Source: Humisphaera borealis (GTDB lineage: Bacteria > Planctomycetota > Phycisphaerae > Tepidisphaerales > Tepidisphaeraceae). Taken from it: DNA of 64,000 nucleotides. Under the pieces are notes generated by a model. The model was not told the DNA's origin. It made no database searches and saw only the letters and a program-made list of their open reading frames with translations. The stretch covers positions 3,844,001 to 3,908,000 of the forward strand of contig NZ_CP063458.1 of the NCBI RefSeq assembly GCF_015169395.1, in the 5' to 3' direction. How positions within the stretch are numbered: the first letter of the stretch is position 1; each line of letters starts with the position of its first letter. Positions 22,255 to 63,735 of the stretch are shown here, in pieces. The translations under genes were made by a program, and so were the position numbers.

Positions 22255-22411
22255 CACGGAGGAGCGGAGGCACGGAGGGCAACTCTACCTGTGAGTCTCC
22301 CCCGAAAGCCAAAACGTTCCTCTACGATCCGAGATTGAAGGTTTGAAATTTCAAACTGAAGATCGGATCGGCGGTCGTTGCTGCGTCACCCGTTGCCCTC
22401 CGTGTCGCCGT
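22255..22411. repeat. nested intergenic palindrome A (dxr-rseP)
   Basis: Outer arms of about 19 nt (22265-22283 and 22392-22410, sharing CACGGAGGGCAAC) enclose a separate inner palindrome: CGATCCGA at 22325-22332 with TCGGATCG at 22363-22370, and a perfect GTTTGAAATTTCAAAC at 22341-22356. It is one of four such elements in the window. Confidence 0.8.
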
Positions 22412-22498
22412 ATTGGTCTTCGCCTTTGGCCATTCGCCCGTTTTTGATGTGGCCGCGTTGTAACGTATTGTCGTCATCAACCTCGCAGAGAACCTTCC

Positions 22499-24622
22499 AT
22501 GCTTCAATCCGCCGGAATCCTGGCGCTGTCGCCATATCTCGAAAATGCCGGATACCTCGCGCTGCTGGCGTTTGGTTTCGGCTTCGTGGTCTTCTGGCAC
22601 GAGCTGGGCCACTTCCTGGCCGCCAAGTGGGCCGGCGTGCGCGTCGAACAGTTTGCCGTCGGCTTCGCCCACGCGGTGGTGTCGTGGCGCAAGGGCATGG
22701 GCTTCCGACTCGGCAGCAGCCAGCGCGAGTACAAAAAGTCCGTCTACCGGCACCTCGGCAAAGAGTATCCCGACAAGGGCGAGCCCACTGAAATCATCTC
22801 CGACCTGCAGATGCGGGAAGGTGGCGAGGCCCTTGGCCTGGGTGAAACCGAGTACCGCCTCAACTGGCTCCCCCTCGGCGGCTACGTGAAAATGCTCGGC
22901 CAGGACGACCTGCGCCCCAATTCCGAGGCCGACGACCCCAAGGCGTACAACCGCCAGTCCATCGGCAAGCGAATGGTGATCGTTTCGGCCGGCGTGGTGA
23001 TGAACGTCATCCTCGCGGCGATCGGGTTCATGATCCTGTTCAGCTTCGGGTTCAATGTCGCGCCGACGAAGGTCGGCTCGGTCCTGCCGAACTCTCCGGC
23101 ACAACTCGCCGGTGTGCGGGTGGGCGACGACATCATTCAGCTCGACGGTCGCGATCTGCACAACGACCAGACCAAGCTCCAACTCAACGCCGCCCTGTCG
23201 GCCAGCAACCAGGATATTCCCATCAAGGTCAGCCGGCTGATGAAGGACAACAGCCGACAGGAACTGAATCTCGACATCATCCCCGCCAAGGCCGACCTCG
23301 GCGGCATCAAGCTGGTGGGGCTCGGCGTCGGGCCGTATCTCGACCTGGCCACACTTTCGGTCGAGGAAGGTCAGCGGCTCAAGGAGATCAAGGACGAAGC
23401 CAAACACATCTTCTGGAACTCGCGACTGCTCAAGCCCGGCGACAAGATCACCGCCGTCAACGGCACCGCCGTCGGCAAAGGCGACTACGCGGTCCTCGAC
23501 GCCCACCTGCAGACCGGCCAGACGGTGACCATCGAAGTCACCGACAAGGACGGTAAAAAGCGGCAGGAGTCGTTCAATCCCATGTTCGTTCCGCCGTTCG
23601 GATCAAACCAGTGGGATCTGCTGGGCATGGTGCCGCGCCACCAGGTGACCTCCGTCATTCCCGATTCGCCGGTGTTCGAAAAAGCACAGAGTGGCGACAT
23701 CCTGCTCGAAGTGCGCGACGGGCAGACGGTTGACGGAAAATCACTGCCCACCTTCAGCAGCCTGAGCAAGTTCGTCAACGACCAGGCCAAGGCTGACAAG
23801 AAAATCCGGCTCACGGTTCTCCGCGACGGGAAACTGGTCGAACTGGAGCCGACCAAGCCGATCGAAATCCGCCGGGGTATCTACGGCGTGGGGATTGGAA
23901 TGGCGGTGGACGATTCGGCCGCCGTAGTAGCCGAGGCTGTTGCGGGATCGCCCGCTGCCGCTGCCGGGCTGACACCCAAATCGACGATCAAGGCCGTCAA
24001 TGGCACCGCGGTAGCCAACTGGCGCGACGTGCACACCACAATCCGCAAAGCCCTTCCCGCCGACGCCACTGCCGCCACCGTTGAACTCACCTACGCCACC
24101 GACGGCGGGGAAACGAAGAAAGCTGAACTCAAGCTCTCAGCCACCGACATCCTCGCGGTCCGCAATGTCCGCTACGATTCCGGGCTCGCACTGAGCCCGA
24201 CCAAGGAAAAGCGTCTGGCCAGCGGGCTTGTGCAGGCAACCCAGTGGGGCGTTATCGAAACGCGTGACTTTATCCTGCAGTTCTACGTGACGCTCCAGCG
24301 CATGGTCACCGGCGACGTCAGCGCCACGAACCTGATGGGGCCGGTCGGTATCTTCCAGACCGGAACCAACATCGCCTCCAAGGGCCCGGACTGGCTCATC
24401 TGGTTCCTTTCGATGATCTCGGCCAACCTGGCGGTCGTGAACTTCCTGCCGATCCCGATTGTCGACGGCGGCCTGTTCACCTTCCTGCTGCTGGAGAAGA
24501 TCAAGGGCAAGCCCGCCTCGCCGCGAACGCAGATGATCGCTCAGTATGTCGGGCTGGTGTTGCTGCTGAGCATCTTTGTGTTCGTCACCTGGCAGGACAT
24601 CGCGAACTTCAAGTTCCGTTAA
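22499..24622 (+). CDS. rseP: RIP metalloprotease RseP (site-2 protease)
   Basis: 707 residues of an intramembrane zinc protease of family M50B, which cuts anti-sigma factors and remnant signal peptides. HELGH at 34-38 is the zinc site in the first membrane helix, and NFLPIPIVDGG near the C-terminus supplies the third ligand Asp. Between them lie about three PDZ-like domains, including 'VLPNSPAQLAGVRVGDDIIQLDG', 'VIPDSPVFEKAQSGDILLEVRDG' and 'AVAGSPAAAAGLTPKSTIKAVNG'. It is longer than the E. coli protein (450), mainly because of the extra PDZ and a soluble insert after the first helix. Confidence 0.93.
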   Translation: MLQSAGILALSPYLENAGYLALLAFGFGFVVFWHELGHFLAAKWAGVRVEQFAVGFAHAVVSWRKGMGFRLGSSQREYKKSVYRHLGKEYPDKGEPTEIISDLQMREGGEALGLGETEYRLNWLPLGGYVKMLGQDDLRPNSEADDPKAYNRQSIGKRMVIVSAGVVMNVILAAIGFMILFSFGFNVAPTKVGSVLPNSPAQLAGVRVGDDIIQLDGRDLHNDQTKLQLNAALSASNQDIPIKVSRLMKDNSRQELNLDIIPAKADLGGIKLVGLGVGPYLDLATLSVEEGQRLKEIKDEAKHIFWNSRLLKPGDKITAVNGTAVGKGDYAVLDAHLQTGQTVTIEVTDKDGKKRQESFNPMFVPPFGSNQWDLLGMVPRHQVTSVIPDSPVFEKAQSGDILLEVRDGQTVDGKSLPTFSSLSKFVNDQAKADKKIRLTVLRDGKLVELEPTKPIEIRRGIYGVGIGMAVDDSAAVVAEAVAGSPAAAAGLTPKSTIKAVNGTAVANWRDVHTTIRKALPADATAATVELTYATDGGETKKAELKLSATDILAVRNVRYDSGLALSPTKEKRLASGLVQATQWGVIETRDFILQFYVTLQRMVTGDVSATNLMGPVGIFQTGTNIASKGPDWLIWFLSMISANLAVVNFLPIPIVDGGLFTFLLLEKIKGKPASPRTQMIAQYVGLVLLLSIFVFVTWQDIANFKFR

Positions 24623-24666
24623 CCGACCCGCAGATCGGGAATCGCACGCGGACGTTTCACCATCGA

Positions 24667-24696
24667 AAAGCCCACGGACATCCGTCCGTGGGCTTT
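24667..24696. terminator. bidirectional terminator between rseP and the FAD oxidoreductase
   Basis: AAAGCCCACGGA pairs perfectly with TCCGTGGGCTTT around a 6-nt loop. A-rich and T-rich sides serve the convergent genes on both strands. Confidence 0.85.
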
Positions 24697-24787
24697 CTCG
24701 TCATGTACTGAGCTGCTCTTCGGCCGTCCTGCCGGCTTCAACTCGCGAGGCGTTCGTCCGCCGTTACCAGTCTCGTCGTTCTCGTTC

Positions 24788-26830
24788 TCACTGCGGCAAC
24801 TCGATGAACTGCAACGCGTCGAGAATCACGAATCCGTCCGTGCCGGCGTTGGTCACGGTTACGACCGTCTCGTCGTCGGCTCCGAGTTCGACCGTTCCGA
24901 CCTTGCGGAATGCCTCGCCGGCGGGCATTGACTGGGTCTGATCAACCGCGATCTCGAACCTTCGTCCGCCGCTTTGCACGACCAGGGGAACCTTCGTGGC
25001 GCGGGTGGCGTGCGGCGAGTAGGCCATTCGAACCTCGTACCGCCCCGCCTTCGGCGCTTTAAACCGGAACGTGGCGATCGACTGGCCGTCGGCCCGGCGG
25101 TCGTCGTGCCGGTATCCGACGCCGACGTGCGGCTTGAAGCTGCTCGATCGGCCCCACGATCCTTTCAACTCCGCCACTTCATCGTCGAGCACGATTCCGG
25201 GGAAGGACTTGGGGTCGAGGGCTCGATCGCCGCGGGGTGCCTCGGGGCTCGCCGGCAGGACCGGCAGGTCCAGCACCTGCTTCTGTGCCAGGAGCCGCTC
25301 GCGCAAAGCCGGGTAGGGCAACTGCTGTACCGGGACATCCTGCTTCGCGCACATCGCCGCGGCGATTCCGGCGCTTTGCCCCAGAATCATCCAGGTCGGC
25401 TCGACACGAATCGAAGAGATGCCCACGTGCGTACACGACAACGCCACCGGCACGAGCAGGTTCTGGCACTCCTGCGGCTTGGGCAGGATGGCGCGGTACG
25501 GAACCTGGTACGGGTAACCATGGCCACGGCCGGCCATTCGCACTGGCATGATCGTGCCTTCGTTCACCACTCGGTCTTTCGTACCAACGCGCTGACAGTC
25601 GTGGGAATCAATCGGGAACGACGACACGACGATCGGGTCTTCCTTCTTCGGATCCTCCAGAATGTCCTTCTGGCTGATGACATACACCCCCTTCATGCGG
25701 CGTCCTTCGCGAACGTAGAGCTGTGGCGACCAGTGTCCATATTCGGCGAACTCGTCGCGGCACAGGCCGAGTTCCGCCAGTTGCTTGCGCAGGTTCTCGG
25801 GGACCGCGGGGTCGGTGGTCAGGAACTGATACAGCTCGAGGGTGTACTGCTTATGGGCTTCCCAAATCTTCGCTCGCCCGGCTTCGTCGGCTTCGCTCCA
25901 ACCGTTGGCGGCACCGACCAAGCCCATGGAAAACTGCTTGCCGATGCCGTTGTTGGCGTCAAGCTTTCCGCCGGGCAGCGGATAGAGATCCCACAGGATG
26001 ATGGGGCGCTTTTCCTGCCGGAAGTATCGCCGAACGACCTCGAATCGTGCCGGGTTGTAAGCGTCGGGCTTGGGGAACGGAACGCGGTTGAGCGGATCCC
26101 GGGTGAGGCACAACCTGAAGCTATAGACCATGACGTTCTTGTCGCCCTCGTCCGTGGCTCCGGCATCGATCGTTGTAATCAGCGGCAGCGGCTTGCCGGC
26201 GTCGTCGAGCCCGGAGATCGCCATGGGCGCTTTGGGATACCGCTTTCCGGCCAAGGACTCGCCGAACTCCTTCGTGCCTTCTCGACCGATCGTCCAGCTC
26301 ACACCCGCTGCGGCCATCAGGTCGCCTTCGTAGGTCGCGTCGATGAAAACCTTTGCCGCGTAGGTGGTGTCGCCGGCGACCAGTTCCGTGATGCGCGTGC
26401 CTTCCTTCTTCACGTTACGGAGCACCTGCTTCTTTACGACACGCACCCCCGCTTCTTCCAGCATTGCATTGGTGATCTTCGCGGCGACGTGAGGCTCGTA
26501 GGTCCATTTGGCCTGATCTTTCTGCGAGACCTTGTAGTCGAGTGCGATCCCCCGCGCCTGGTAGTCCTTCTCGATACGCGAATGCCATTCTTCGAAAAGG
26601 CCCAGAACCGTACTGCGCACGGTCTGGTTGGAGTCGCTGAAACAGAGTCCGCCGGTGTTAACCCCGCCGACATGATCGGTCGGCTCCAGGAGGATGACCG
26701 AGGCACCTTCGCGCGCCGCGGCGATCGCCGCGCAGAATCCGCCGGGGGTGGCACCATAGACAACGACGTCGGCGGCAAGGCAGGTGTGCGGAAGGATCAG
26801 GAGGAAAAACAGGGCTGCAAGTGGTCGCAT
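24788..26830 (-). CDS. exported FAD-dependent oxidoreductase with golvesin/xanthan-lyase-like C-terminal domain
   Basis: About 680 residues. A signal peptide (residues 1-19, ending CLAA) is followed by VVVYGATPGGFCAAIAAAREG, a variant dinucleotide-binding loop of the FAD_oxidored family (PF12831), and GGVNTGGL. A CTHVGISSIRVEPTWMILGQSAGIAAAM block closes the flavin domain. The last 130 residues form a beta-rich domain ('FRFKAPKAGRYEVRMAYSPHATRA') like the golvesin C-terminal/xanthan lyase module. Such proteins are abundant in planctomycetes and are thought to act on sugars in the periplasm. ATG 26830 is chosen because the signal peptide starts there. Confidence 0.85.
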   Translation of the reverse strand: MRPLAALFFLLILPHTCLAADVVVYGATPGGFCAAIAAAREGASVILLEPTDHVGGVNTGGLCFSDSNQTVRSTVLGLFEEWHSRIEKDYQARGIALDYKVSQKDQAKWTYEPHVAAKITNAMLEEAGVRVVKKQVLRNVKKEGTRITELVAGDTTYAAKVFIDATYEGDLMAAAGVSWTIGREGTKEFGESLAGKRYPKAPMAISGLDDAGKPLPLITTIDAGATDEGDKNVMVYSFRLCLTRDPLNRVPFPKPDAYNPARFEVVRRYFRQEKRPIILWDLYPLPGGKLDANNGIGKQFSMGLVGAANGWSEADEAGRAKIWEAHKQYTLELYQFLTTDPAVPENLRKQLAELGLCRDEFAEYGHWSPQLYVREGRRMKGVYVISQKDILEDPKKEDPIVVSSFPIDSHDCQRVGTKDRVVNEGTIMPVRMAGRGHGYPYQVPYRAILPKPQECQNLLVPVALSCTHVGISSIRVEPTWMILGQSAGIAAAMCAKQDVPVQQLPYPALRERLLAQKQVLDLPVLPASPEAPRGDRALDPKSFPGIVLDDEVAELKGSWGRSSSFKPHVGVGYRHDDRRADGQSIATFRFKAPKAGRYEVRMAYSPHATRATKVPLVVQSGGRRFEIAVDQTQSMPAGEAFRKVGTVELGADDETVVTVTNAGTDGFVILDALQFIELPQ

Positions 26831-27116
26831 CCCTCTACTACGCCGCCAACGTCTGCGGACGTCAACTCGCCCCGGCGGCCGACATGGCAATAGTCCATCA
26901 ATAATGTCTCGGTAACCGTCGCGACTTGAGGGCTGGGAAGCTGTTCCAGCGACTCAGAATCCACGCCGCATGTTTTCCTGCGAAGTTTCCTCAACAATCC
27001 GGACAATCCAATGCACGCGCCGAGGGTGAACGGGCGATAATCAGTGTTCCCATGTGCCGGGTTCACCGATCCGGAGGGAAGATTTGTTTTACTGTCCACG
27101 GAAGGATACGAGTTTC

Positions 27117-27890
27117 ATGAAGAAGAAGAGCACCCCCAAGCGTCACACTGCCGCCCCCCGTTCCGCGACCATCGAAGCGCCCGCGACCAAGCCGAGCGTC
27201 ACCAGCCAGACGGTGACGGCGGGCAAGCCGGAATCGGTTGTTGTGGCAAAGGCGACACCGGAAGTTTCGTCCAAGGCGACGAAAACCGAAGTCTCCCCGA
27301 CGACGGACTCGAACCCGGCGGTCTCAGCCGTTACCATGACGGCACCAGCCGACGCGGTCGAGAAGATGCCGGCGGAGCAATCCGCCGATTCAGTCATGGC
27401 AAACACCACTCCCACTGCCGCCCTGGTCAATTCACTCCGCGATACATCGGCCGACGTCGCCAGCGAGGCAGCCGCCGCGCTCGGGGCAACGGGTGATCAC
27501 TCCGCGGTCAAGCCACTGTCCGATGTCATCGCCAACGCCGACGGCTACTACCACCCGGTCGTCCGCGCCGCTGCGGCGACGAGCCTCGGTAAGCTCGGTG
27601 ACACGAAGGCTGTCCCAGCACTGATCGCCGGAATCCGTGATGAGATGGCCGAAGCGTCGGCCGAATCGATTCGCGCCCTGGCCGCGATCGGCGATGCCCG
27701 CGCCGTCGCGCCGCTGGTTGAAGTCGTCCGCAACGCCGAGGGATTCTATCTGTCCTTCGTCCGTCGCGCGGCCGTCATGGCCCTGGTGAAGCTCGGCGGT
27801 CCCGAAGCGACCACCATGCTCCGCGTTGTCGCCGACAACTTCGACGAAGACCCGGTCATCCGTCAGGTCGCCGTTGACGCGCTGGCCTGA
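27117..27890 (+). CDS. HEAT-repeat protein
   Basis: 257 residues. The first 100 are Lys/Thr/Ala-rich low complexity with a basic start (MKKKSTPK). The rest consists of about four HEAT/PBS-lyase-like helical repeats with the pattern 'A..ALG.lGD..AV.pLi..l' (about 100-257). It probably serves as a protein-protein scaffold. GGAAGG lies about 10 nt before the ATG. No signal peptide is seen and no partner gene is obvious. A shared terminator separates it from the convergent transaldolase. Confidence 0.75.
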   Translation: MKKKSTPKRHTAAPRSATIEAPATKPSVTSQTVTAGKPESVVVAKATPEVSSKATKTEVSPTTDSNPAVSAVTMTAPADAVEKMPAEQSADSVMANTTPTAALVNSLRDTSADVASEAAAALGATGDHSAVKPLSDVIANADGYYHPVVRAAAATSLGKLGDTKAVPALIAGIRDEMAEASAESIRALAAIGDARAVAPLVEVVRNAEGFYLSFVRRAAVMALVKLGGPEATTMLRVVADNFDEDPVIRQVAVDALA

Positions 27891-27917
27891 GCGCACGCCG
27901 CAGTTGATTGAAAACAA

Positions 27918-27960
27918 AAAGCCCCGTGTTCGAGCGACTTCGCTTCGAACACGGGGCTTT
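27918..27960. terminator. bidirectional terminator between HEAT gene and transaldolase
   Basis: AAAGCCCCGTGTTCGA pairs with TCGAACACGGGGCTTT, with an inner GCG/CGC extension, and is flanked by A-rich and T-rich tracts. Confidence 0.9.
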
Positions 27961-28008
27961 GTCTTTTTCTTGATCCCGGACACTTGGCGTCGATACGCTT
28001 CGGCCCGA

Positions 28009-29064
28009 CTACTTCGCGGAACTCAGCAACTCCCGCTTCAGCTTGATCAGCTTCAGCAACGCCACCTGTGGCTCGGCGAACTTCGATGTGCCTTCTTCCA
28101 TCAGCTTGGCTTCCATTTTGGCGATGTTCACCTTCGCATCGATCTCGTCCTGAATCTCCTGCGAAGGAAGCTTATCGACCTGACGGGTGAACAGCTTGTT
28201 CATCTGGCGGATCGCGTCGTTCGTCGCCGGCGGGTTGGTCTGAATGTCACTCCCGGCCAGCGCGGCGACGTACTTGTCTTTCGGATCTTCGGGCTTCTTG
28301 GTGCCAGTGCTGGCGAAGATGATCTCCTGCTGAAGCGGGAGCTTCTTGTCCGCCCAGAATGCCTGGTTCAGCGCCCAGAGCCGTTTGACGTTCAGGATGC
28401 CGACCTGTCCCTGTGCAGCGGGGGAGAGCTCGGGGACGTACTTCTCGGTGTAGACGTCCACACGGCTGACGAAAATGCTGTACACGCTCTTGAACTTGCT
28501 CAGCCCCTCTTTGCGACGTTGAGCGCCGCGCCAGACGTTGTCGCGGGCGATCTTGTACTGCCGCTCGGAGAAAATCAGCGTGACGTTGAGTGTGATTCCC
28601 GCCGCCGCAAGCTCTTCGAGGCAACCGAGACCGGCTTCCGTCGCCGGAACCTTGATCATGCGATTCTCATGCCCCGCCGCCCACTTCTTGCCGAGCTCGA
28701 TGTAACGTCGAATTGCTTCGGCGGTCGGAACGGGGTTGTTGACATCTTCCAGCAGCGGATCGAGTTCGAAGCTCACGTAGCCGTTGTTGCCGTTGGTCTG
28801 CTGATAGACGGGATAGAAGACCTCCTGGGCATCGTGGACGAGATGGTCGGTCATCTCCCAGGCAATGTCGGTATCCGATTTGCCTTCGTCGATCAGCTCC
28901 TGAATCTCTTCATCCCAGCGACCTGTCTTGAGCAGATCAGAGACGATGATCGGATTGGAGGTCGCTCCGGTGGCACCCCAGCCTCGGTTTTCGGCCACGA
29001 GTGTGGGGTCAATGGAATCGAGCCACAGCTTTGTACCGGACGCGATCAGCGCTTTGATGGACAT
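28009..29064 (-). CDS. tal: transaldolase
   Basis: 351 residues. It transfers a dihydroxyacetone unit between sugar phosphates in the non-oxidative pentose phosphate pathway. LWLDSIDP and [13 protein letters not shown] form the N-terminal signature, and RMIKVPAT carries the Schiff-base Lys. It is longer than the 220-residue TalC type and resembles the longer bacterial transaldolases fused in some species to glucose-6-phosphate isomerase, but no isomerase part is present. ATG 29064 is preferred over upstream in-frame codons because AAGGAAG lies 9 nt before it. Confidence 0.92.
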
Positions 29065-29254
29065 AGGGAAACTTCCTTTCAGCTTGGTTGCACGGGATTG
29101 TAGTGCGGCTCGGGGGATAGTGAACCCGTCCGACGACAACAAAAAGTGCAGGAAGCGCGATATCTTGCAGAAGCAGGCCAATCGGCGACGATACGTCGGA
29201 CGGCCTGACGGGTGATTTCCGCGGCCGGCGATCGAGTCGCGTAAGGGCTATTTG

Positions 29255-29620
29255 ATGTTTCCTCAGCGCAAAGCACGCATCGCTCGTCATGCGGCATACG
29301 CGATGACCGCGACCATCGCACTTCTGACGACCGGCTGCGGGCCCGGCTCCGGTCCGACCGTCTCGCTGACCAGCGACGACCCGGCCGGTCGAATCCCGGC
29401 GATCAAGGGGGCCGCTCAGCGGAAGGATCAAGCGTCGGTTCCCAAGCTGGTGGAATTGCTTTCCAGCGACGACCCGGCCGAGCGGTTCTACGCGATCGAG
29501 GCCCTGCGGCGCATCACGGGTAAAACGATGGGCTACAATTACTATGGCTCGGAACAGGAGCGCGCCCAGGCGATCGATCGATGGAAAGCCTCGATCGCAC
29601 CGACGACCCAACCCAGGTAG
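29255..29620 (+). CDS. small HEAT-like lipoprotein
   Basis: 121 residues. A basic N-terminus and hydrophobic stretch end in the lipobox LTTGC (about 25-29), so it should be lipid-anchored after cleavage at Cys. The mature part holds one or two HEAT-type repeats ('SVPKLVELLSSDDPAERFYAIEALRRITG') with a short Thr-Gln-Pro tail. It lies 37 nt before the RsbW-like gene and may be the first gene of the RsbW-STAS-Mla unit. Its function is unknown. Confidence 0.75.
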   Translation: MFPQRKARIARHAAYAMTATIALLTTGCGPGSGPTVSLTSDDPAGRIPAIKGAAQRKDQASVPKLVELLSSDDPAERFYAIEALRRITGKTMGYNYYGSEQERAQAIDRWKASIAPTTQPR

Positions 29621-29656
29621 GTTGGCGCGCATGCAACGTTAGTGCCGGAGGAGTCG

Positions 29657-35637: not shown

Positions 35638-35644
35638 GGATGAA

Positions 35645-35768
35645 ATGACGAATGACGAAATTCGAATGGCGAATGAAGCTCCAATTGCAAATGACCAAGA
35701 TTGGTTTCGGTCATTTGAACATTCGGAGTTCGAGCTTCATTCGCCATTCGAATTTCGTCATTCGTCAT
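35645..35768. repeat. perfect 37-bp inverted repeat after gpsA
   Basis: Arms 35645-35681 and 35732-35768 are perfect reverse complements (ATGACGAATGACGAAATTCG at the left end). A second inner pair, CAAATGACC with GGTCATTTG, lies in the 50-nt loop. It separates convergent gpsA and the transglutaminase gene. A related imperfect copy lies before holB at 41.3 kb. Confidence 0.9.
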
Positions 35769-35793
35769 TGCGCGATCGTGAGTTCCGTCGCGA

Positions 35794-37609: not shown

Positions 37610-37611
37610 GA

Positions 37612-37850
37612 GAGAGAGAGATCACCACGGAGTCACGGAGACACGGAGGGTACCTCGACTACAGGTCAACTCGCCGAACGGAGCGTAGAACCACAGATGC
37701 ACACAGATCTGCACAGATCATTCAGAATCGTTTGACTGCCATCTGTGCAGATCTGTGTGCATCTGTGGTTCTACATCTCTGGTCAATCAGGCGAAGCTGC
37801 CGTGGTCGAGTTGCCCTCCGTGTCTCCGTGCCTCCGTGGTGATCTCTGTT
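37612..37850. repeat. nested intergenic palindrome B
   Basis: Outer arms (about 37617-37650 and 37814-37846) share ATCACCACGG/CCGTGGTGAT and the CACGGAGACACGGAGGG motif. Inner arms 37685-37718 and 37741-37774 are perfect 34-nt reverse complements beginning GTAGAACCACAGATGCACAC. A close copy lies at 40.3 kb. Confidence 0.9.
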
Positions 37851-37866
37851 TTTCGTGAAAAGAAAA

Positions 37867-40319: not shown

Positions 40320-40540
40320 TCAGCACGGAGACGCGGACGGTATCTCGGCTACAGCTCAACTCGCCGAACGAAAAGTAGAACCACAGATGCACACAGATCT
40401 GCACAGATCGTTCCGAATCGTTTGATTTCTATCTGTGAAGATCTGTGTGCATCTGTGGTTCTACATCTCTGGTCAATCAGGCGCAGCTACCGGAGTCGAG
40501 TTGCCCTCCGTGTCTCCGTGCCTCGGTGGTGCTCTCTCTT
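40320..40540. repeat. nested intergenic palindrome C, copy of element B
   Basis: Same structure and strongly similar sequence to the element at 37.6 kb. Inner arms are at 40375-40408 and 40431-40464 with one mismatch. The outer right arm at 40496-40535 carries CCCTCCGTGTCTCCGTGCCTC. The left outer arm is shorter and diverged. It fills the gap before tmk. Confidence 0.88.
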
Positions 40541-56049: not shown

Positions 56050-56059
56050 ACTGGACTTG

Positions 56060-56147
56060 CCACGGATGGACACGGATGAACACGGATAAGAGAAATGCTC
56101 GGTGAACATCATGTCTCCCATCTGTGCCCATCTGTGTTCATCCGTGG
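56060..56147. repeat. CACGGAT/ATCTGTG palindrome overlapping the permease start
   Basis: The left arm 56060-56087 (CCACGGATGGACACGGATGA...) and the right arm 56120-56147 (...GTTCATCCGTGG) form an imperfect palindrome. The right arm is read in frame as the first codons of the permease, so either the repeat was recruited as coding sequence or the true start lies later. Confidence 0.7.
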
Positions 56148-57529
56148 CGACTTTTCTTCGGTCTCGGTTTCTCGCTGCCCGATTCGAAACCGCAGAGCCC
56201 TGGTACTCGCACCTGGCCCGGTTCGCCCGTGAACTGGTGGACGACCGGATCGGCACGACGGACCTGGTCGTGCTGGCGGCGATTCTGCTCGGCGTCACCT
56301 GCGGCGTGCTCGGGTGCTTCCTGATCCTGCGCCGCCAGAGCCTGCTCGGCGACGCCGTCGGCCATGCGGTGCTGCCGGGCGTGTTCCTCGGTTTTCTCGC
56401 GGCGGGTGCCCGCAGCACGCCGGCCTTGCTGCTCGGGGCGCTTGTCGCGGGTCTCCTGGCGGCGGCATTGATCGCGGTCCTTCAGCGGACCACCCAGCTC
56501 AAGGCCGGCGAGTGCATCGGCGTCGTTTTCACCGGGTTCTATGGCCTGGGCATCCTGCTGCTGAAACACATCCAGAACAACGCCGCCCGCTACCCGGGAC
56601 AGGCCGGCCTCGACAAGTTCCTCTTCGGGCAGATCGCCGGCATCTCCGCGACGGACGTCATCTACATGGCGGTCGTCGCCGCGGTGTCGCTGGCCTGTGT
56701 GGCGCTGGCGTGGCGATCGCTCGCGGCCTGGGCGTTTGATGAAGGGTTTGCTGTCAGCATCGGCCTGCCGGTCAAGGCGATCGAAACGATGATGACCGGC
56801 CTCGTTACCGTTGCGATCGTCATCAGCATTCAGGCCGTCGGCGTTGTGCTGGTGGCCGCGATGCTCGTTACGCCCGCCGCCACCGCCTACCTGCTTACCG
56901 ACCGATTGCACCGGATGGTGCTGCTGGCGGCGATGTTCGGGGCGGCGGCGGGAGTGATCGGCGCGGTCGTCAGCCTGCTCGGTGCCGACATGCCCACCGG
57001 ATCGCTGATGGTCATCGCCGGCGGCACGCTGTTCGGCTTGGCGTTCCTGCTGTCGCCACGGCACGGCCTGCTGCCGCGCCTCCGCCGGGTGTGGGAGCGC
57101 CGCCGCCGTACCCAGGCCGAGAACCTCCTTCGCATGCTCTACCTGATCATGGAAAGCCGGGCTGGCGGCGGAAAAGTCCCCGACAACGCCGACCGCCGAT
57201 TCGGCGTCTCCGATGCCGCCGGCGCCCGCGGCACCACGCCGGCAGCGGTGCGCAAGTACTGGCGTCTGGCCGCCCATCGCGGGTGGGTCGATCCGTCGAG
57301 CCCCGATCCCATGATCCTGACCGATGCAGGCTTCGCCGAGGCCCGCCACGTCGTGCGGACGCACCGGCTCTGGGAACTGTTCCTGACGCAGGAGGCGAAG
57401 ATTGCCAGCGACCATGTGCATGCCGACGCCGAAGACATCGAGCACATCCTGCCGCGCGATGTGCTCGCGAAACTCGAACATATGCTCGACTACCCGACGG
57501 CTGATCCGCATGGGAAGCCAATACCGTAA
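56102..57529 (+). CDS. metal ABC-3 permease fused to a DtxR-like domain
   Basis: 475 residues (GTG start; ATG 56111 or GTG 56144 are alternatives inside a repeat). About eight membrane helices (about 55-325) contain LLGDAVGHAVLPGV, the ABC-3 motif. Residues about 340-475 are soluble and resemble the DtxR/MntR wing and metal-binding domains ('ADAEDIEHILPRDVLAKLEHMLDYPTADPHGKPIP'), matching the same region of the repressor upstream. This suggests that the channel itself senses metal. It is followed by a second permease of the same plan. Confidence 0.88.
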   Translation: MNIMSPICAHLCSSVATFLRSRFLAARFETAEPWYSHLARFARELVDDRIGTTDLVVLAAILLGVTCGVLGCFLILRRQSLLGDAVGHAVLPGVFLGFLAAGARSTPALLLGALVAGLLAAALIAVLQRTTQLKAGECIGVVFTGFYGLGILLLKHIQNNAARYPGQAGLDKFLFGQIAGISATDVIYMAVVAAVSLACVALAWRSLAAWAFDEGFAVSIGLPVKAIETMMTGLVTVAIVISIQAVGVVLVAAMLVTPAATAYLLTDRLHRMVLLAAMFGAAAGVIGAVVSLLGADMPTGSLMVIAGGTLFGLAFLLSPRHGLLPRLRRVWERRRRTQAENLLRMLYLIMESRAGGGKVPDNADRRFGVSDAAGARGTTPAAVRKYWRLAAHRGWVDPSSPDPMILTDAGFAEARHVVRTHRLWELFLTQEAKIASDHVHADAEDIEHILPRDVLAKLEHMLDYPTADPHGKPIP

Positions 57530-57532
57530 AGG

Positions 57533-57620
57533 CAATGCTGAATGCGGAATGCTGAGTGCTGAACGTCGATCGAGTTCGCTTTAACGGGCATTTCTTATTC
57601 AGCATTCAGCGTTCAGACTT
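57533..57620. repeat. AATGCTGAATG-type imperfect palindrome between the two permeases
   Basis: Left AATGCTGAATGCGGAATGCTG and right ATTCAGCATTCAGCGTTCAG regions are imperfect reverse complements. It is related to the palindrome between mlaE and mlaF. Confidence 0.65.
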
Positions 57621-57624
57621 TTCT

Positions 57625-58965
57625 ATGAACCCTTTCCTCTGGATCCTCGGCTCCCCTCCCGACGGCTATAAGCCCGGATTGGAGACTTTCTGGCCTATCC
57701 TGGTCGAGGGTGCTCTGGTGTCGGTGGCGCTGGCACTGATCGGCTGCTGGCTCGTCGTGCGCGGGCTGTCGCTGCTCGGCGACGCGCTGGCCCATTCGGT
57801 TCTTCCCGGCATCGTGATCGGCTTTCTCATCGGTAAGTCTCTCCAGTCGGCCTGGATCCTGGTCGGCGCCACCGCCATGGGCATGGCGGCGGCGGTGCTC
57901 GTGCAGGCGGTCCGCGACAACAGCCGGGTGAAGGAAGATGCCTCGCTTGGCATCGTCTTCACCACGCTGTTCGCGATCGGCGTCGTGCTGATCAACCTCT
58001 TCGCCGGCCAGACCGATCTCGACCCCGGATGCGTGCTCTACGGGCAGGTCGAGTACTTCATCCGCACCCCGGAAAAAATCATCCCGATGGCGTGCATCCT
58101 GGGCGGCATCCTGCTGCTGATGGTCCTGTTCTTCCGCCAACTGCTCATCAGCACGTTCGATCCGCTGCTTGCCCGCAGCATGGGCATCCCGGCGACGTTC
58201 ATCCATTACACGATCATGGCCGTCCTCTCGCTGACGACGGTCGCGAGCTTCGAAGCGGTCGGCGCGATCCTTGCCGTCGCGCTGCTCGTCACGCCCGGCG
58301 CAACTGCCCGCCTCTGGACCGACCGCATGAAGCGCATGCTCCTGCTGGCCGCTTTGCACGCACTGCTGGCGACGACCATCGGCTACTGGCTCAGTCATCC
58401 GTCGATCCTCAACACGTCGGCGAGCGGGGCGATCTCGTCGGCGGGGTTCGGGCTGTTCCTGGTCAGTTGGCTCGTCGCGCCCAAACGTGGGCTTCTCAGT
58501 CAGTATCGCGTTCGCAGGCGCCTTCGGCGGACGATGGCCGAGGAGAACCTCGTCAAGACCGTGCACGAGCTGACGTCGCCGTCGCCCGCGACTGCCGCAA
58601 ACCCATCGTCCGAACCGCAGGGCACGGAAACGTCGATGCCGGCTCAGGTTCCGACGTCCGTTGCCTCGGCCCGCGTGCGCGAACTGCTGCAGATGCCGTC
58701 GTTCGACTTCGAGGCCGCACTTCGTGGCGTCATCTCCCGCGGCTGGGCCCGTGCCGGCAAAGGGCAGATCACCCTGACCCCTGCCGGCCATCGCAGGGCT
58801 CAACTGCTGGCCAGCGCCCACGAACTTTGGGAACAGTACCTGCGCCAGGAAGTTGGCCTGGCCGACGATCACCTGCACGACCCCGCCGAATGGGTCGAGC
58901 ACTTCCTCGACGAAAGCCGAATCGAGGAACTGAAGGCATCCCTCATCAAGCAAGCGCCAGGGTGA
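57625..58965 (+). CDS. second metal ABC-3 permease with C-terminal DtxR-like domain
   Basis: 446 residues. About eight membrane helices (about 20-290) with GLSLLGDALAHSVLPGI, then a Pro/Ser/Thr-rich linker (about 325-350) and a soluble C-terminus (about 352-446) with 'ARVRELLQMPSFDFEAALRGVISRGW', 'LTPAGHRRAQLLASAHELWEQYL', 'LADDHLHDPAEWVEHFLDES', again a DtxR-like winged helix plus ligand helix. It pairs with the upstream permease as a heterodimeric channel. The likely cargo is Mn2+, Fe2+ or Zn2+. Confidence 0.88.
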   Translation: MNPFLWILGSPPDGYKPGLETFWPILVEGALVSVALALIGCWLVVRGLSLLGDALAHSVLPGIVIGFLIGKSLQSAWILVGATAMGMAAAVLVQAVRDNSRVKEDASLGIVFTTLFAIGVVLINLFAGQTDLDPGCVLYGQVEYFIRTPEKIIPMACILGGILLLMVLFFRQLLISTFDPLLARSMGIPATFIHYTIMAVLSLTTVASFEAVGAILAVALLVTPGATARLWTDRMKRMLLLAALHALLATTIGYWLSHPSILNTSASGAISSAGFGLFLVSWLVAPKRGLLSQYRVRRRLRRTMAEENLVKTVHELTSPSPATAANPSSEPQGTETSMPAQVPTSVASARVRELLQMPSFDFEAALRGVISRGWARAGKGQITLTPAGHRRAQLLASAHELWEQYLRQEVGLADDHLHDPAEWVEHFLDESRIEELKASLIKQAPG

Positions 58966-59378
58966 TATGGCACCGAGCGCACCGATCGCAGGCACCGCAG
59001 GCACCCAACCAGTTCCCCAGCGACCCACAACGCCCACGGACAGCAGTCCGTGGGTCTTCCTTCGCGATGTAAGCTGGCCAACGCTGAGAGCCTGTCGCGT
59101 GACTGCAGATGGTCCCACGGACCGCTGTCCGTGGGCGTCACGCGGGAAGTTCTCATTCGCATATAAAACCATTAAAAGTATGATCTTACGAGTCTATAGA
59201 CCGCTGGCATGTTAAAATAGGTAAAGATTTTTTCGGCCAACTCCGATACCCTAATTGTCGCAAGTTACCCAGTTTAACATGTGGCGCCGGTCGGGATGCC
59301 GACCAACTCCTTCGGTCGCCTATCGCGTTTGTGTGACGCGGGGCGACTAAGGATCACCCGACCTTTCGGAGTTCCCTG
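58966..59378. other. intergenic region with opposed CCCACGGAC hairpins and an AT-rich patch
   Basis: No gene is seen. Two hairpins, CCCACGGAC...GTCCGTGGG (about 59033-59055) and its mirror (about 59115-59137), face each other. Then follows an AT-rich stretch with TTAAAA-N17-TATAGA (59172-59200), a possible promoter for the B12-fold gene, and a 9-bp inverted repeat CATGTTAAA/TTTAACATG (59208-59216 and 59273-59281). Confidence 0.6.
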
Positions 59379-60140
59379 ATGTCCCGCACCCACGTCACCC
59401 CGTCCCTCTCCCAGAAGTACCTCGAGCCCCTTCTCAAGGGCGAACGCGACCTGTGCCGTCGCATCGTCGAGGAATCTCTTGCCGCCGGCATCAGCCCGGC
59501 CGACCTCCTGAACGACCTCGTCTGGCCGACGATGGAAAAGGTCCAGGAGCTCTATCGCGATGACCGCATCACGATCTCGGCCGTCAACCTCGCCACCCGC
59601 CTGAACCGCGCCCTGACCGACCAGCTCACCGCCCGCCTGCCGCGGTCGGCCCCCAAGGGCAAGAAGGTCCTGATCTTCTGCGGCGACGACGAGCCCGAAG
59701 AGCTCGGCGGCCAGATCTGTGCCGACCTGTTCGAGTGCGACGGCTGGAACGTCAAGTTCGCCGGCGGCGGCGTGCCGGAAGACGAAGTCCTCTCGCTCAT
59801 CGGCAGCGAACGCCCGGAACTGCTCGTCATGTTCGGTACCCTCCCGGCCGGCGTCCCCGCCGTCCGCAAACTCATCGACTACCTCCGCGAGGTCAACAGC
59901 TGTCCGGAGATGCAGATCATGTGCTGCGGCGGCATCTACAAGCGGGCCGAAGGCCTGGCCGAAGAGATCGGCGCCGACCTCTTCGCCGCCGAGGCGTCCG
60001 ATGCGATCCGCGTCGCCAATGACAACCCGACCAAAAAGGCGACGGTCGATCAGCAGACCGTCGGCCGGATGCGCCGAATCCGCAAGGCCCAGTTGCGCCG
60101 CGTCGACCGCGTCGCGCCGTCCGCCGAGCAGGTGGCGTAA
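59379..60140 (+). CDS. B12-binding-fold protein without the cobalamin histidine
   Basis: 253 residues. The N-terminal helical half (about 10-90) resembles the B12-binding-2 cap domain (KYLEPLLKGERDLCRRIVEE...VWPTMEKVQELYRDDRIT). The C-terminal half (about 93-215) is the Rossmann-like B12 fold. Where cobalamin proteins have DxHxxG, this has DDEPEELGG and no His, so base-off cobalamin binding is unlikely. It may sense another ligand or bind protein. It sits between the metal transporter and a TonB receptor. Confidence 0.8.
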   Translation: MSRTHVTPSLSQKYLEPLLKGERDLCRRIVEESLAAGISPADLLNDLVWPTMEKVQELYRDDRITISAVNLATRLNRALTDQLTARLPRSAPKGKKVLIFCGDDEPEELGGQICADLFECDGWNVKFAGGGVPEDEVLSLIGSERPELLVMFGTLPAGVPAVRKLIDYLREVNSCPEMQIMCCGGIYKRAEGLAEEIGADLFAAEASDAIRVANDNPTKKATVDQQTVGRMRRIRKAQLRRVDRVAPSAEQVA

Positions 60141-60182
60141 GCGACCGCGACCGGATCGAAAAGCTGGCGTTTCACGCGCCTC

Positions 60183-60216
60183 AAGGCACAAGGTCAGCAG
60201 AATGACCTTGTGCCTT
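60183..60216 (+). terminator. hairpin after the B12-fold gene
   Basis: AAGGCACAAGGTCA pairs perfectly with TGACCTTGTGCCTT around a 6-nt loop. Only a weak T-rich tail follows. Confidence 0.65.
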
Positions 60217-60234
60217 GCTTTCGTTCCGGGATCC

Positions 60235-60517
60235 GCCGAACGAACCCAGGGCGATCGTGATTTGCCGAACGAACCCGAGATCGATCCGCGCCGCCCAATT
60301 AGCGGTCGCACCGCAGGTGCACCCTGATGGATCGAGACGTCACGCTCGCTCCTGGCATCCGCCGAACGAACCCGAGGCGATCATCCGATCCGCCGAACGA
60401 ACCCAAGATCGATCCGCACTGCCTGATTAGCGGTCGCACCGCCGGTGCACTCCGCCCGAGCGACGTCGAAACTCGCCGAACGAACCCAAGACAATCTCGA
60501 TTCCGCCAAACGAACCC
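60235..60517. repeat. three tandem units, each with a pair of GCCGAACGAACCC repeats
   Basis: Six 13-mers start at 60235, 60264, 60361, 60392, 60475 and 60505 (the last with one mismatch). They come in pairs spaced 29-31 nt, and the pairs recur every 114-126 nt. The first two units also share ATCGATCCGC and TTAGCGGTCGCACCG. The short spacers are similar to each other, unlike CRISPR spacers. Confidence 0.85.
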
Positions 60518-61210
60518 GAGCCGACCGCCGGCGTCAGCGTCCTGCGTATCCGTCCCACCTCCCTAAACAAGACCACTCGGCCCGATCCTCCAACGCGCAT
60601 GGCGCACTGAGGGAGCCGCGCACGAAGTAAGCGGGAACGGCACGAGACTGGCGTGATGCCACGTTCCATGCCCGCTTACTTCGTGCGCGTCTCCTTCAGA
60701 ACGTCATGCGCTGCGAAGGATCGTCCGAGTCAAACCAATGCCACGACTACGGCGAGCCACACGACCCGCCTCATCCCGCCGCCCAGTCCGACACCCCGGC
60801 CGACGACGGATCACACCCGCGGCAACCAGGCACCAAGTAGCGCAAGCCGACCCCGACCGAACGCCAGAAACGTCCGACGTCGGCAGGATTGCATGTACGG
60901 TATATGTTAAGTTTAACGCCGAGAATTGCAAGCAGAAAACGACTATCCCCGCGCCCGAGGGTGTAGCGCGTTTTTGGTACTGGCGTGTCGTTCGGGTGCC
61001 ATGGGTAGCGGTACTCCGCTGCCCGTGGCTACCCCCGATCCGCCGGCGCGCGGGCCGCCGCCAAACGGGCATACGTCGAGTGCATCGCTGCTCTTGCCGG
61101 CGGGCAGAAATTGCACGAGCAAGGCAGGCTGATGCCCGACTCCGTATAACCCCGACCCATGCGGACTCTACGGGCTGAGTCCGCGATCGGGAACTCAGGG
61201 AGCGCGAGGC
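60518..61210. other. gene-poor region with long palindromes upstream of the TonB receptor
   Basis: No convincing gene. A perfect 19-bp inverted repeat (60617-60635 with 60671-60689, CGCGCACGAAGTAAGCGGG), a hairpin GCCATGGGTAGCGG/CCGCTGCCCGTGGC (60998-61029), and GCGGACTC/GAGTCCGC (61161-61184) within a CCCGA/TCGGG frame just before the receptor start. I looked for cobalamin riboswitch boxes here and did not find them. Confidence 0.6.
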
Positions 61211-63451
61211 ATGGGCAAGTCAATTCAGGTGGCACGTTCGTCGGCATCCAACCGGCCGGCATCTCAGAAACAATGGAAGATCCTCTGCGGTGCGATCACC
61301 GCAGCGATCGGGCAGCCGCTGATGACGTCGTCATCGCTTGCGCAGGACACGGCCCCCACCACCCGGCCAGCCTCGCAGGCGGCCGCCGAAACCGCACCTG
61401 CCACGGCAACGCCCGTCCGGGCTGCCGGCGACGGGGCACCGCAATCGTTTCTCATCGGCGAGCCGATTGTCGTTACGGCAACCCGTCTCCCGGAAGCGCC
61501 ACTGAAGAGTCCGTATGCGGTTGACGTGGTCGGACAGCAACAGATCGCGGAACGGGGCTATCGAACGCCGACCGAGGCCGTCGCGGAGGTTCCGGGGGTG
61601 ATGGCGCAGAAGACCGGGCCCGGGCAGGGCTCTCCGTTCATTCGCGGCTTCACAGGTTTTCGCACGCTGCTGCTCGTGGACGGCATCCGGCTCAACAATT
61701 CGACCTTCCGAGACGGTCCCAACCAGTACTTCAATACGATCGACGCCCTGGGTGTCGACCGATTCGAGATCGTCAAGGGGCCGGCGTCGGTGCTCTACGG
61801 TTCCGACGCGATCGGCGGAACGATCAACTCCATCACCAAGGGCCCGACCGGCTACGGCGACGGCACGCGGTTCGGTGCCGCCCTCTACCAACGCGCCGCG
61901 TCGGCTGAAAAATCGTACACCATTCACCCTGAAGGCACCGTCACGTTCGGCCAGAAGGTCGGCGTCTATGCCGCGGGGTCGTACAAGAAGTACGGCGACC
62001 TCGAAGGCGGCAAGGACATCGGCGAGCAGGACGCGACCAGCTATGACGAATGGTCCGGCGACCTGAAGGTCGAATACAACCTGACGCCGAATCAGCGGCT
62101 CGTCTTCGCCCACCAGCGATATCAGCAGAACAACGCGCCGCGCACGCATTCAACCGTCGACGGAATCAACTTTGCCGGCAGCACCAATGGGTCGGACCTG
62201 CAGCGCGACCTCGACCAGTACCGCGACCTGACTTATGTCCAGTATCACGCCGACCAGTTGACGGGCGCGATCAGCAATGTGATGGCCAGCGTCTCCTGGC
62301 ACCACCAGTTCGAGAGCGAAGACCGCATCCGCGGCAACGGCGCCCGCTCGATCTCCGAAACCGACGTCGGCAGCCTCGGCCTGCTCCTGCAACTGACCAG
62401 CCCGACCCCGATCGGCGAGTTGACGTACGGCGTGGAGTACTACCGCGACAGCGTCAGTTCCAGTTCTTCCACCAACCCGATCCAGGGCCCGGTCGGCGAC
62501 AACGCCAACTACGACCTTCTCGGCCTTTACATCCAGGACCGAATCCCGATCGGGGACCGTTTCGACCTGACCCTTGGCGGGCGTTTCACGTATGCCGCCG
62601 CTGACATCGGCTCCTACGTCGATCCCACGACCGGGGACGCGGCGAGCCTGGAGCAGGACTGGACGAGCTTTGTCGGCTCCATCCGCGGCAACTATTTCAT
62701 CGTCAAGGATCAGCTTTCGGCATTCGCGGGGGTGAGCCAGGGTTTCCGCGCTCCGAACCTCTCGGACTTGTCGCGGCTGGATATCGCCCGCAGCGGCGAA
62801 CTGGAGATCGCCGCACCGGGGCTCGACCCCGAAGAGTTCGTCAGTTACGAAATTGGTTTCAAGGGTGCGTGGGACAACTGGGGCTTCCAGGCGGCATACT
62901 TCTACACCGACATCAACGACATGATCGTCCGCCGTCCCACCGGCGCGACGATCGGCAGCAGCGCCGTGGTCACCAAGGCCAATGCCGGCGACGGCTACAT
63001 CCAGGGTATCGAATTGGGCCTGTCGTACCGGTTCCACCCTGACTTCACGTTCTTCGGCGCAGGGTCCTGGCAGGACGGCGAGATCGACCAGTTCCCCACG
63101 TCCGGTCCGCAGGTCGATCGCGAGCCGGCGAGCCGGCTCATCCCCACCAACGGGCTTCTGGGCATCCGGTGGGACGACCCGTCGCGGCGGGTATTCGTCG
63201 AGGGCGCAGTTCAGATCGTTGCGGCACAGCACCAACTCTCGAGCGGCGACAAAGCCGACACCCAGCGCATTCCGCCCGGCGGTACGCCCAGTTACGAGCT
63301 GTACCACCTCCGCGCCGGATGGACCATCAACCCCAACGCCACGCTGACCCTGGCCTGCGAGAACCTGTTCGACGAGGACTATCGCGTCCATGGCTCGGGC
63401 AGCAATGGCGCGGGCCGGAACTTCGTCGTCGGGCTGGAGCTGCGGTACTAG
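61211..63451 (+). CDS. TonB-dependent outer-membrane receptor
   Basis: 746 residues. A long basic N-terminus with a hydrophobic segment (about 25-43) and Thr/Ala-rich linker is followed by EPIVVTATRLPEAP at the start of the plug domain and 'RGFTGFRTLLLVDGIRLNN', 'VDRFEIVKGPASVLYGSDAIGGTIN', both plug signatures. The rest is a 22-strand-type barrel that ends in Tyr (GLELRY). It imports iron complexes, cobalamin or other scarce ligands using TonB energy. The neighbouring metal genes suggest a metal-complex substrate, but this is inference. Confidence 0.92.
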   Translation: MGKSIQVARSSASNRPASQKQWKILCGAITAAIGQPLMTSSSLAQDTAPTTRPASQAAAETAPATATPVRAAGDGAPQSFLIGEPIVVTATRLPEAPLKSPYAVDVVGQQQIAERGYRTPTEAVAEVPGVMAQKTGPGQGSPFIRGFTGFRTLLLVDGIRLNNSTFRDGPNQYFNTIDALGVDRFEIVKGPASVLYGSDAIGGTINSITKGPTGYGDGTRFGAALYQRAASAEKSYTIHPEGTVTFGQKVGVYAAGSYKKYGDLEGGKDIGEQDATSYDEWSGDLKVEYNLTPNQRLVFAHQRYQQNNAPRTHSTVDGINFAGSTNGSDLQRDLDQYRDLTYVQYHADQLTGAISNVMASVSWHHQFESEDRIRGNGARSISETDVGSLGLLLQLTSPTPIGELTYGVEYYRDSVSSSSSTNPIQGPVGDNANYDLLGLYIQDRIPIGDRFDLTLGGRFTYAAADIGSYVDPTTGDAASLEQDWTSFVGSIRGNYFIVKDQLSAFAGVSQGFRAPNLSDLSRLDIARSGELEIAAPGLDPEEFVSYEIGFKGAWDNWGFQAAYFYTDINDMIVRRPTGATIGSSAVVTKANAGDGYIQGIELGLSYRFHPDFTFFGAGSWQDGEIDQFPTSGPQVDREPASRLIPTNGLLGIRWDDPSRRVFVEGAVQIVAAQHQLSSGDKADTQRIPPGGTPSYELYHLRAGWTINPNATLTLACENLFDEDYRVHGSGSNGAGRNFVVGLELRY

Positions 63452-63460
63452 CCCAGAAAA

Positions 63461-63735
63461 CGCGGATCACGCGGAGGACACTGAGAACACGGAGAAATCA
63501 CGAAAAGGCGCGCTCCATGTGCCGGCCATTTTCCGTGTTTAGCCAGGAGTAATGTCACAGAGTGCATCATGAGGCTGACAGCCTCAAACCGAGAGAATGA
63601 AAACCGAACCGCAGATTGCGCAGATGTCGCAGATTGCCTTCTCCCCAATCTGCGACCTCTGCGGAATCTGCGGTTCACCTCAACATTCGTGCAAACTCTC
63701 CGTGATTTCTTCGTGTCCTCAGTGTCCTCCGTGGT
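63461..63735. repeat. nested intergenic palindrome D
   Basis: Outer arms about 63468-63502 and 63701-63735 (GGAGGACACTGAG / CTCAGTGTCCTCC) enclose inner arms 63606-63636 and 63646-63676 (GAACCGCAGATTGCGCAG... with its imperfect reverse complement). It fills the gap between the receptor and fbp. Confidence 0.88.

Follow-up and report, generated by a model that had tools for sequence, protein, structure and literature searches.

The intergenic palindromes A to D analysed here lie in a stretch of 64,000 nucleotides of the Humisphaera borealis genome (C1:3844001-3908000 of the 7.19 Mb one-contig assembly; hereafter, the window), and they are probably gene-less, non-autonomous and nested copies of two classes of mobile hairpin that each carry a single gene. 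In its gene-bearing form, such a hairpin consists of two inverted arms built from short tandem repeats and of one small gene in the loop, coding either for a GxxExxY or for an S23/IVP protein. Judged by their sequences, the CACGGAG outer arms and the CACAGAT and CGCAGAT inner arms of the window are GxxExxY-type arms, and an AATGACG palindrome at 35644-35769 is of the S23 type. The sequence data that point to this assignment are the association of arms with genes, a repeat unit specific to each protein family, dispersed copies, sites without the element and a mostly centred nesting; the link to the genes and the mobility of the hairpins are well supported, and the catalytic steps we infer. An initial annotation had described the nested inverted repeats of the window and missed that their arms belong to gene-bearing GxxExxY and S23 elements. 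The features discussed below are as follows (positions within the window).

22252 to 22412, no strand: element A, a CACGGAG-type outer hairpin with a weak inner palindrome at about 22341-22356
37610 to 37662, forward strand: left outer arm of element B, made of CACGGAG 8-mers
37802 to 37854, reverse strand: right outer arm of element B, pairing with the left arm 37610-37662
37685 to 37774, no strand: inner palindrome of element B, CACAGATGCA type, with perfect arms of 34 nt
40323 to 40521, no strand: element C, a close copy of B
63472 to 63731, no strand: element D, with an off-centre inner palindrome of the CGCAGATTG type at 63606-63676
35644 to 35769, no strand: further palindrome of AATGACG heptads with S23-type arms, 6 nt past a stop codon
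56059 to 56148, no strand: further palindrome with CCACGGATGGACACGGAT arms, GAT type

Inverted arms enclose GxxExxY and S23 genes

S23 and GxxExxY are small protein families whose genes sit among repeats of this kind, and they were therefore chosen for a search of the source genome, which gave four matches to S23/IVP (PF05635) and four to GxxExxY (PF13366), the gene-bearing GxxExxY copies being L035 to L038. On inspection, all eight genes are enclosed by inverted arms of tandem repeats, and seven of them reach an alignment score of at least 16, the exception being the S23 gene at 6607281 with a score of 12. The GxxExxY gene at 2425227 carries the arm GTAGAACCACAGATGCACACAGAT (C1:2425158), which equals the first 24 nt of the inner arm shared by B and C; within the 1.648 Mb of the source genome that we examined, this 24-mer occurs only in the arm of that gene and in elements B and C.

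The association holds across the phylum, in which GxxExxY matches are present in 70 and S23 matches in 77 of 149 sampled genomes. In our flank test, 350 nt were taken from each side of a locus, the left flank was aligned to the reverse-complemented right flank, and a score of at least 16 counted as a pass. The samples were capped sets of best matches and not all matches. For S23, they comprised the four loci of the source genome plus one top-scoring locus from each of 29 of the 77 genomes (33 loci), and for GxxExxY the four own loci and those of 30 of the 70 genomes (34 loci); a search of 59 genomes supplied the 30 PIN loci that served as a control. One locus was dropped from each sample, for S23 because of a short flank. 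Flanking inverted arms were detected at 27 of 32 S23 loci, at 28 of 33 GxxExxY loci and at none of the 29 PIN loci. When the left flank of one locus was paired with the right flank of another, 1.8% (S23), 9.6% (GxxExxY) and 0.5% (PIN) of the pairs passed, the GxxExxY value being high because the arms of this family resemble one another everywhere. In a sample from many phyla, 51 of 77 GxxExxY loci (the best 80 of 581 named records, less three with short flanks) possess such arms, against 11.6% of crossed pairs, and 49 of these 51 contain at least three loosely defined units. The passing loci include representatives of Chloroflexota, Acidobacteriota, Verrucomicrobiota, Planctomycetota, Bacteroidota and Pseudomonadota. 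GxxExxY is also commoner in genomes that contain a CACRGAG triple repeat (21 of 28) than in those without it (49 of 121; p 0.0014), and viral contigs, considered with a view to a viral origin, yielded only three GxxExxY loci, all from one degenerate pattern.

Plasmids carry the elements as well. Among the 16 of 35 plasmid matches that we examined, the flanks by themselves revealed arms at 6 of 11 S23 loci (two of them from one strain and with the same arms) and at 3 of 5 GxxExxY loci; as arms may overlap the open reading frame (ORF), 30-40 nt of the gene ends were also included, and the counts then rose to 9 of 11 and 4 of 5. Several plasmid elements lie between apparent operon partners, namely fabD/fabG, radA/FAD protein, nrdB/nrdA (with the S23 gene on the opposite strand) and cas6/cas4. 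Three cyanobacterial plasmids (L466, L467 and L472) have an S23 gene within a CRISPR operon, twice between cas6 and cas4 and once between cas10 and a Cmr3-family gene. On a Gemmatirosa plasmid (L462), the GxxExxY gene has a complete hairpin on each side instead of single arms and is possibly a composite element. S23 and GxxExxY genes lie about 1-2 kb apart in several genomes (G095 C1:3452953-3455409, G053 C78, G099 C237).

Arm type follows the protein family and clade

S23 arms are mostly composed of 7-mers, and GxxExxY arms of 8-11-mers that vary between protein clades; a period of 7 fits best in 20 of 27 S23 arms and in none of 28 GxxExxY arms (p 2e-9). A script sorted 128 distinct GxxExxY loci into 70 of GAG/AAG type, 10 of GAT type, 1 mixed and 47 unclassed. 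L038 was assigned to the GAT type manually, and the 11 loci of this type then group in a single protein clade (support 100/99) among 81 loci, so that the GAT type requires one change on the tree, compared with a mean of 10.5 and a minimum of 7 in 200 shuffles. RGAG and RAAG units among the non-GAT loci require 9 changes (shuffled mean 16.0; none of 500 shuffles as low), and position 2 of the unit (CAC or CGC) is not clustered on the tree (118 of 500 shuffles as low). On the evidence of this tree, the agreement between arm and clade shows that the arms move together with their gene, which is not in itself proof that the protein recognises them. With regard to horizontal transfer, phylum labels require 31 changes over the 53 loci with a named phylum (16 phyla), with a shuffled mean of 36.4 and a minimum of 30; clustering by phylum is consequently weak, on a tree of a short protein with many poorly resolved forks.

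Architecture of elements A to D

The description of B and C as close copies of each other in the initial annotation stands, with 90% identity across 218 nt. The outer arms of B (37610-37662/37802-37854) share 87% identity over 53 nt, and its inner arms (37685-37718/37741-37774), reported to be perfect, are indeed 100% identical over 34 nt; the corresponding values for C are 82% over 28 nt (40323-40350/40494-40521) and 92% over 39 nt (40370-40408/40431-40469). Element A begins 15 nt past the stop codon of dxr and has outer arms (22265-22283/22392-22410) of 19 nt with 89% identity. Its interior contains an exact palindrome of only 16 nt, that is, half arms of 8 nt, within a longer imperfect one, and no inner arm of A reached a score of 9 when nested stems were measured. 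In D, outer arms of 36 nt with 89% identity (63472-63507/63696-63731) surround inner arms of 31 nt with 94% identity (63606-63636/63646-63676); the outer arm sequence, GGACACTGAGAACACGGAGAAATCACG, is a repeat related to, but different from, that of A to C. All four elements are real, and the proposed nested design applies to B and C as described, with a weak inner part in A and an outer arm in D that is only a relative of the shared repeat.

The arms are short tandem repeats, with the units CACGGAG plus one nucleotide (outer arms of A to C), CACAGAT plus three (inner arms of B and C) and CGCAGAT plus two (inner arms of D). Inverted tandem units of the form CRCNRAG or CRCNRAT are present in the outer and inner arms of B and C and in the inner arms of D; the outer arms of A fit with one aberrant unit, and those of D fit only loosely. 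The loops of A to D contain no gene, and we classify the four elements solely as gene-less relatives. They sit between protein genes and outside 23S rRNA helices. The neighbours scanned include Dxr, an M50 protease, a SpoU methylase, an S24/HTH regulator, a methyltransferase, a thymidylate kinase and a TonB receptor. As the initial annotation had stated, none of the elements adjoins a transposase among the nine neighbouring proteins scanned, a scan that left out the right-hand neighbour of D and did not survey the insertion sequence (IS) transposases of the genome. No Rfam family reached its gathering score in the window. The notion of long RNA hairpins holds structurally, with B predicted to fold into a single stem (-185 kcal/mol, z -21); a strong fold follows from the palindromy and is therefore not evidence of transcription.

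Nesting and genomic placement

We compiled 48 outer pairs of the CACGGAG and CACGAAG types from the 1.648 Mb and from short chosen stretches of the source genome. The palindromes in their loops are GAT-type, CCAAG-type, REP-like (repetitive extragenic palindrome-like) and others, so that the same outer family surrounds several unrelated inner palindromes; outer and inner arm types each also occur alone. The separate search for both arms thus bears out the idea, voiced in the initial annotation, of miniature elements that insert into each other, which is largely right. Among 17 nested cases, picked for a seen or suspected inner palindrome, 12 have two separable stems, and in 11 of these 12 the inner and outer dyad centres coincide within 8.5 nt. 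Tested against uniform placement, the centring gives a combined p of 5e-4 over the 12 cases and of 0.015 when each inner type is counted once. Four of the 17 cases are single stems only, and at 3583653 (72 nt) and 4871872 (95 nt) the stem covers both the outer and the inner part; A, the remaining case, yielded no inner stem. Such centring suggests hairpin tips as target sites.

Taken together, whatever their kind, the palindromes of the 1.648 Mb are mostly non-coding: 131 of 171 have a coding overlap below 20%, compared with 12.6% of random places, and 24 of 171 exceed 80%. According to our own simple gene calls, they avoid divergent spacers (13 of 131 versus 158 of 722) and prefer convergent ones. 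Those with tandem-repeat arms lie at a median of 27 nt from a stop codon in tandem spacers (17 cases) and of 6 nt in convergent spacers (9 cases); two are in divergent spacers.

Sites with and without the element

The one genome of the same genus that was found, G149, is syntenic to both flanks of A with 78% and 80% identity. At the A site (L405, contig C654, about 9536-9645), it has no CACGGAG element and contains an unrelated heptad palindrome; one intergenic site has therefore hosted different hairpins. G149 also lacks an element at the ends of the genes that precede B and the palindrome at 35644, and at the end of a 65%-identical homologue of the gene that precedes C; at these three sites, contigs end, or the neighbour differs or was not matched. 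CACGGAG hairpins of its own are present elsewhere in G149. At one such site, the source genome has about 1.2 kb of other DNA without a palindrome, and at a second site one flank is comparable. No match to D or to its left-hand gene appeared among the 34 G149 matches listed. Family-level relatives were also compared for empty sites: most have the regulator gene, but at none of the 11 loci examined were the B and C neighbours found next to it.

Gene-bearing elements vary in the same manner. On a Nostoc plasmid, nrdB and nrdA are separated by an S23 element; on a Calothrix plasmid, only about 40 nt occupy this place. In Bacteroides finegoldii, a GxxExxY element directly follows the radA stop codon and precedes the next gene; the same position is a spacer of 13 nt in Parabacteroides and is occupied by another, unidentified ORF in Phocaeicola. 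In both site comparisons (Nostoc/Calothrix and Bacteroides), arms and gene are jointly present or absent. Sites without the element were found in G149; target duplications, which the initial annotation had proposed to look for, were not seen. Since such sites exist in a same-genus genome, the opposite case that it had set out, one ancient structured element whose arms never part and always occupy the same orthologous site, does not apply.

The encoded proteins and a proposed mechanism

In 26 aligned GxxExxY proteins, a D, a K, a Q and a Y are invariant and one E is nearly so; we read these residues as the PD-(D/E)XK set plus a QxxxY motif. This is in line with the family labels (TIGR04256/PDDEXK_3, predicted PD-(D/E)XK nuclease) and with a predicted structure (pLDDT 92.4), the best matches of which are PD-(D/E)XK nucleases, with SSO0001 in first place (E 8e-4) and the R2 retrotransposon protein as the sixth structural match (E 0.012). 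One S23 protein matches 2gsc, and S23p of Xanthomonas is reported to be a homopentameric ring (PMC4990558). S23 proteins are four-helix bundles without an obvious catalytic site.

We suggest that the encoded protein binds the repeat unit of its own arms, in cis or, on gene-less copies, in trans, and that GxxExxY would cut the target. S23 would need a partner enzyme, as it has no obvious catalytic site. A copy of the hairpin would then be inserted either immediately after a stop codon or into the tip of a palindrome already present, and insertion at tips would give rise to palindromes inside palindromes. Imperfect palindromes are subject to correction at the time of replication, and this process may keep the arms complementary. 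The pairing of arm and protein also means that the binding preference of each protein can be tested directly in biochemical assays.

Alternative explanations and opposing evidence

The strongest competitor, although an unlikely one, is that the palindromes are not mobile at all and are maintained by selection as structures that stabilise 3' ends or act as bidirectional terminators. Their mostly non-coding placement, the avoidance of divergent spacers and the closeness to stop codons speak for this reading; yet they are absent at comparable sites in G149, which has its own copies elsewhere, a T-run follows the right arm within 20 nt in only 8 of 28 outer elements, and the arms enclose genes. 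Some elements may have been exapted after insertion. There is only a slight chance that slippage of tandem repeats together with quasipalindrome correction creates the palindromes on the spot, with the small genes landing later. This explanation would account for conserved arms around unrelated loops and for composites that form one continuous stem with arms of 72 and 95 nt, but not for the joint presence or absence of arms and gene in two site comparisons, nor for the recurrence of the same unit beside the same gene family across phyla. Marginally less probable still are palindromes of the REP/BIME (bacterial interspersed mosaic element) type, moved by a Y1 transposase (RAYT, REP-associated tyrosine transposase) like other repeats of this genome. 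The genome indeed has many GTAGGGTCCGCCTTGGCGGAC-type hairpins resembling GTAG REPs, such REPs are reported from Planctomycetes in the passages seen of PMC3733652, and the inner arm of B and C starts with GTAG. This GTAG, however, belongs to a symmetrical arm of 34 nt that is not a REP hairpin, the outer arms have no GTAG, the arms are longer than REPs of 20-40 nt and consist of tandem 7-11-mers, and arms of these kinds are found around the GxxExxY and S23 genes. Ordinary IS-derived miniature inverted-repeat transposable elements, with a parent IS elsewhere in the genome, are the most improbable source: shortness, terminal inverted repeats and multiple intergenic copies fit, but no transposase is present among the scanned neighbours, to which our survey was confined, no target duplication was seen, and the arms match those of GxxExxY and S23 elements.

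Several observations weigh against gene-less copies of GxxExxY and S23 hairpins as well. No GxxExxY copy with exactly the outer arms of the window was found in the source genome, and the mobiliser of the window elements is for this reason guessed from related arms. By score, 5 of 33 GxxExxY, 5 of 32 S23 and 26 of 77 cross-phylum loci are without clear arms, archaeal GxxExxY loci pass in one of three cases (Methanothrix, L265), and 5 of 11 plasmid S23 loci fail when flanks only are considered. GxxExxY matches are missing from seven of the 28 genomes that contain the octad repeat, and a reversed-pattern control of the triple-repeat searches gives comparable counts; since the reversed form of a tandem repeat falls within the very arrays being counted, this control does not gauge the background. 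The agreement between arm and clade could be explained by linked inheritance alone, with the GAT/GAG split being a single change. The TM-score of the SSO0001 fold match, the sole match below 1e-3, is only 0.46 (query) and 0.32 (target). G149 is 65% complete, with synteny on both sides only at site A, and no target-site duplication was seen in the Nostoc/Calothrix and Bacteroides comparisons, in which divergence is too high to exclude one. Regarding the nesting, the inner palindrome of D is off-centre by 39.5 nt and that of A is weak. Placement of elements in pre-existing host hairpins was tried as an explanation and rejected, since, in a test of the flanks of 28 outer elements for complementarity beyond the arms, the own pairs were not clearly better than crossed ones (p 0.08). 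Finally, 19 of 39 CACGGAG loops are unlike any other, a finding not expected from simple copying, and the CACGGAG arms are conserved (median 34 of 40 positions to the consensus); as a guess, template switching might homogenise the arms around unrelated loops.

Relation to known repeat systems

The intervening sequences (IVSs) of 23S rRNA that encode S23p resemble the elements in being hairpins with an S23 ORF in the loop. They reside in 23S rRNA helices, whereas the present elements are intergenic and mostly gene-less, and a second family carries GxxExxY. According to PMC4990558, the S23p ORF of the Coxiella IVS is preceded by tandem heptamers, and IVSs were proposed to be mobile in earlier work; the S23 part of our findings is therefore an extension of known elements. 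The 23S IVS protein is named in PMC10053308 and PMC10910872, and one paper, on the CpV virus genome, has the phrase 'GxxExxY protein'. Short tandemly repeated repetitive sequences (STRRs) of cyanobacteria, in the accessible text of PMC2670836, are usually 7-bp repeats able to form intergenic hairpins, with a function that is not known, and are described there solely as cyanobacterial repeats with no gene linked; STRRs within RNase P RNA figure in a reference title in PMC2858038. Heptad arms of this sort flank the S23 genes of cyanobacterial plasmids. Of the window elements, the palindrome at 35644-35769 is a hairpin of tandem heptanucleotides, and B, C and D are not. REP/RAYT systems likewise combine many intergenic palindromes with a small DNA-acting protein as the presumed mover; their arms and protein fold are different, and our elements carry the gene within the palindrome itself. 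Of two S23 proteins compared, one is a distant match to Avd of diversity-generating retroelements (NF033474, E 7e-6, 26 bits versus a cut-off of 80); no reverse transcriptase was present among the window neighbours scanned, a genome-wide search not having been made.

In the literature searched, to which most subscription papers did not belong, no paper linking GxxExxY or S23 genes to such hairpins was found save for S23 in 23S rRNA inserts, none of six repeat strings was found in print, and nothing was found on the role of GxxExxY, on the arm code or on nested hairpins without a gene. We tentatively entertain a broader view, which we hold to be quite possible and somewhat short of probable: GxxExxY and S23 may represent a new class of minimal mobile elements, tandem-repeat hairpins whose sole gene reads its own unit, which target palindrome tips and the first bases after stop codons, cross phyla and leave gene-less nested hairpins behind, with STRRs and the 23S intervening sequences as local forms. 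If true, two common families without a known function would gain a role as the genes of mobile hairpins, and STRRs, CACGGAG/CACAGAG repeats and 23S inserts would share one origin.

Further palindromes of the window and the genome

The window holds nine inverted pairs with a score of at least 18 within 400 nt, compared with a mean of 0 in 30 dinucleotide shuffles, and the top score is 38 in the real sequence and 16 in the shuffles; chance does not account for them. Across the 1.648 Mb, 344 inverted pairs of all kinds, REP-like ones included, contrast with 67 in a mirrored control. As the palindromes at 35644-35769 and 56059-56148 and others are also present, the four copies of the initial annotation were an undercount. 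The sequence AATGACGAATGACGAA of the 35644-35769 palindrome, the period of which agrees with S23-type arms, was matched 13 times within the 1.648 Mb. The window has further strong inverted repeats, of various other kinds, at 60583-60723, 59030-59138, 27911-27967 and 13155-13205. A second large set of palindromes in the source genome, with GTAGGGTCCGCCTTGGCGGAC and similar arms (e.g., C1:2532723 and 3028480), apparently comprises REP/BIME elements. Some CACGGAG elements possess alternative flanking ends such as ATCCAACATACAAGGCACGG (C1:3608311, 3614406, 5290043 and 5881039); alternative right ends are found at 4176415 and 4845730, and some elements differ in their end on each side.

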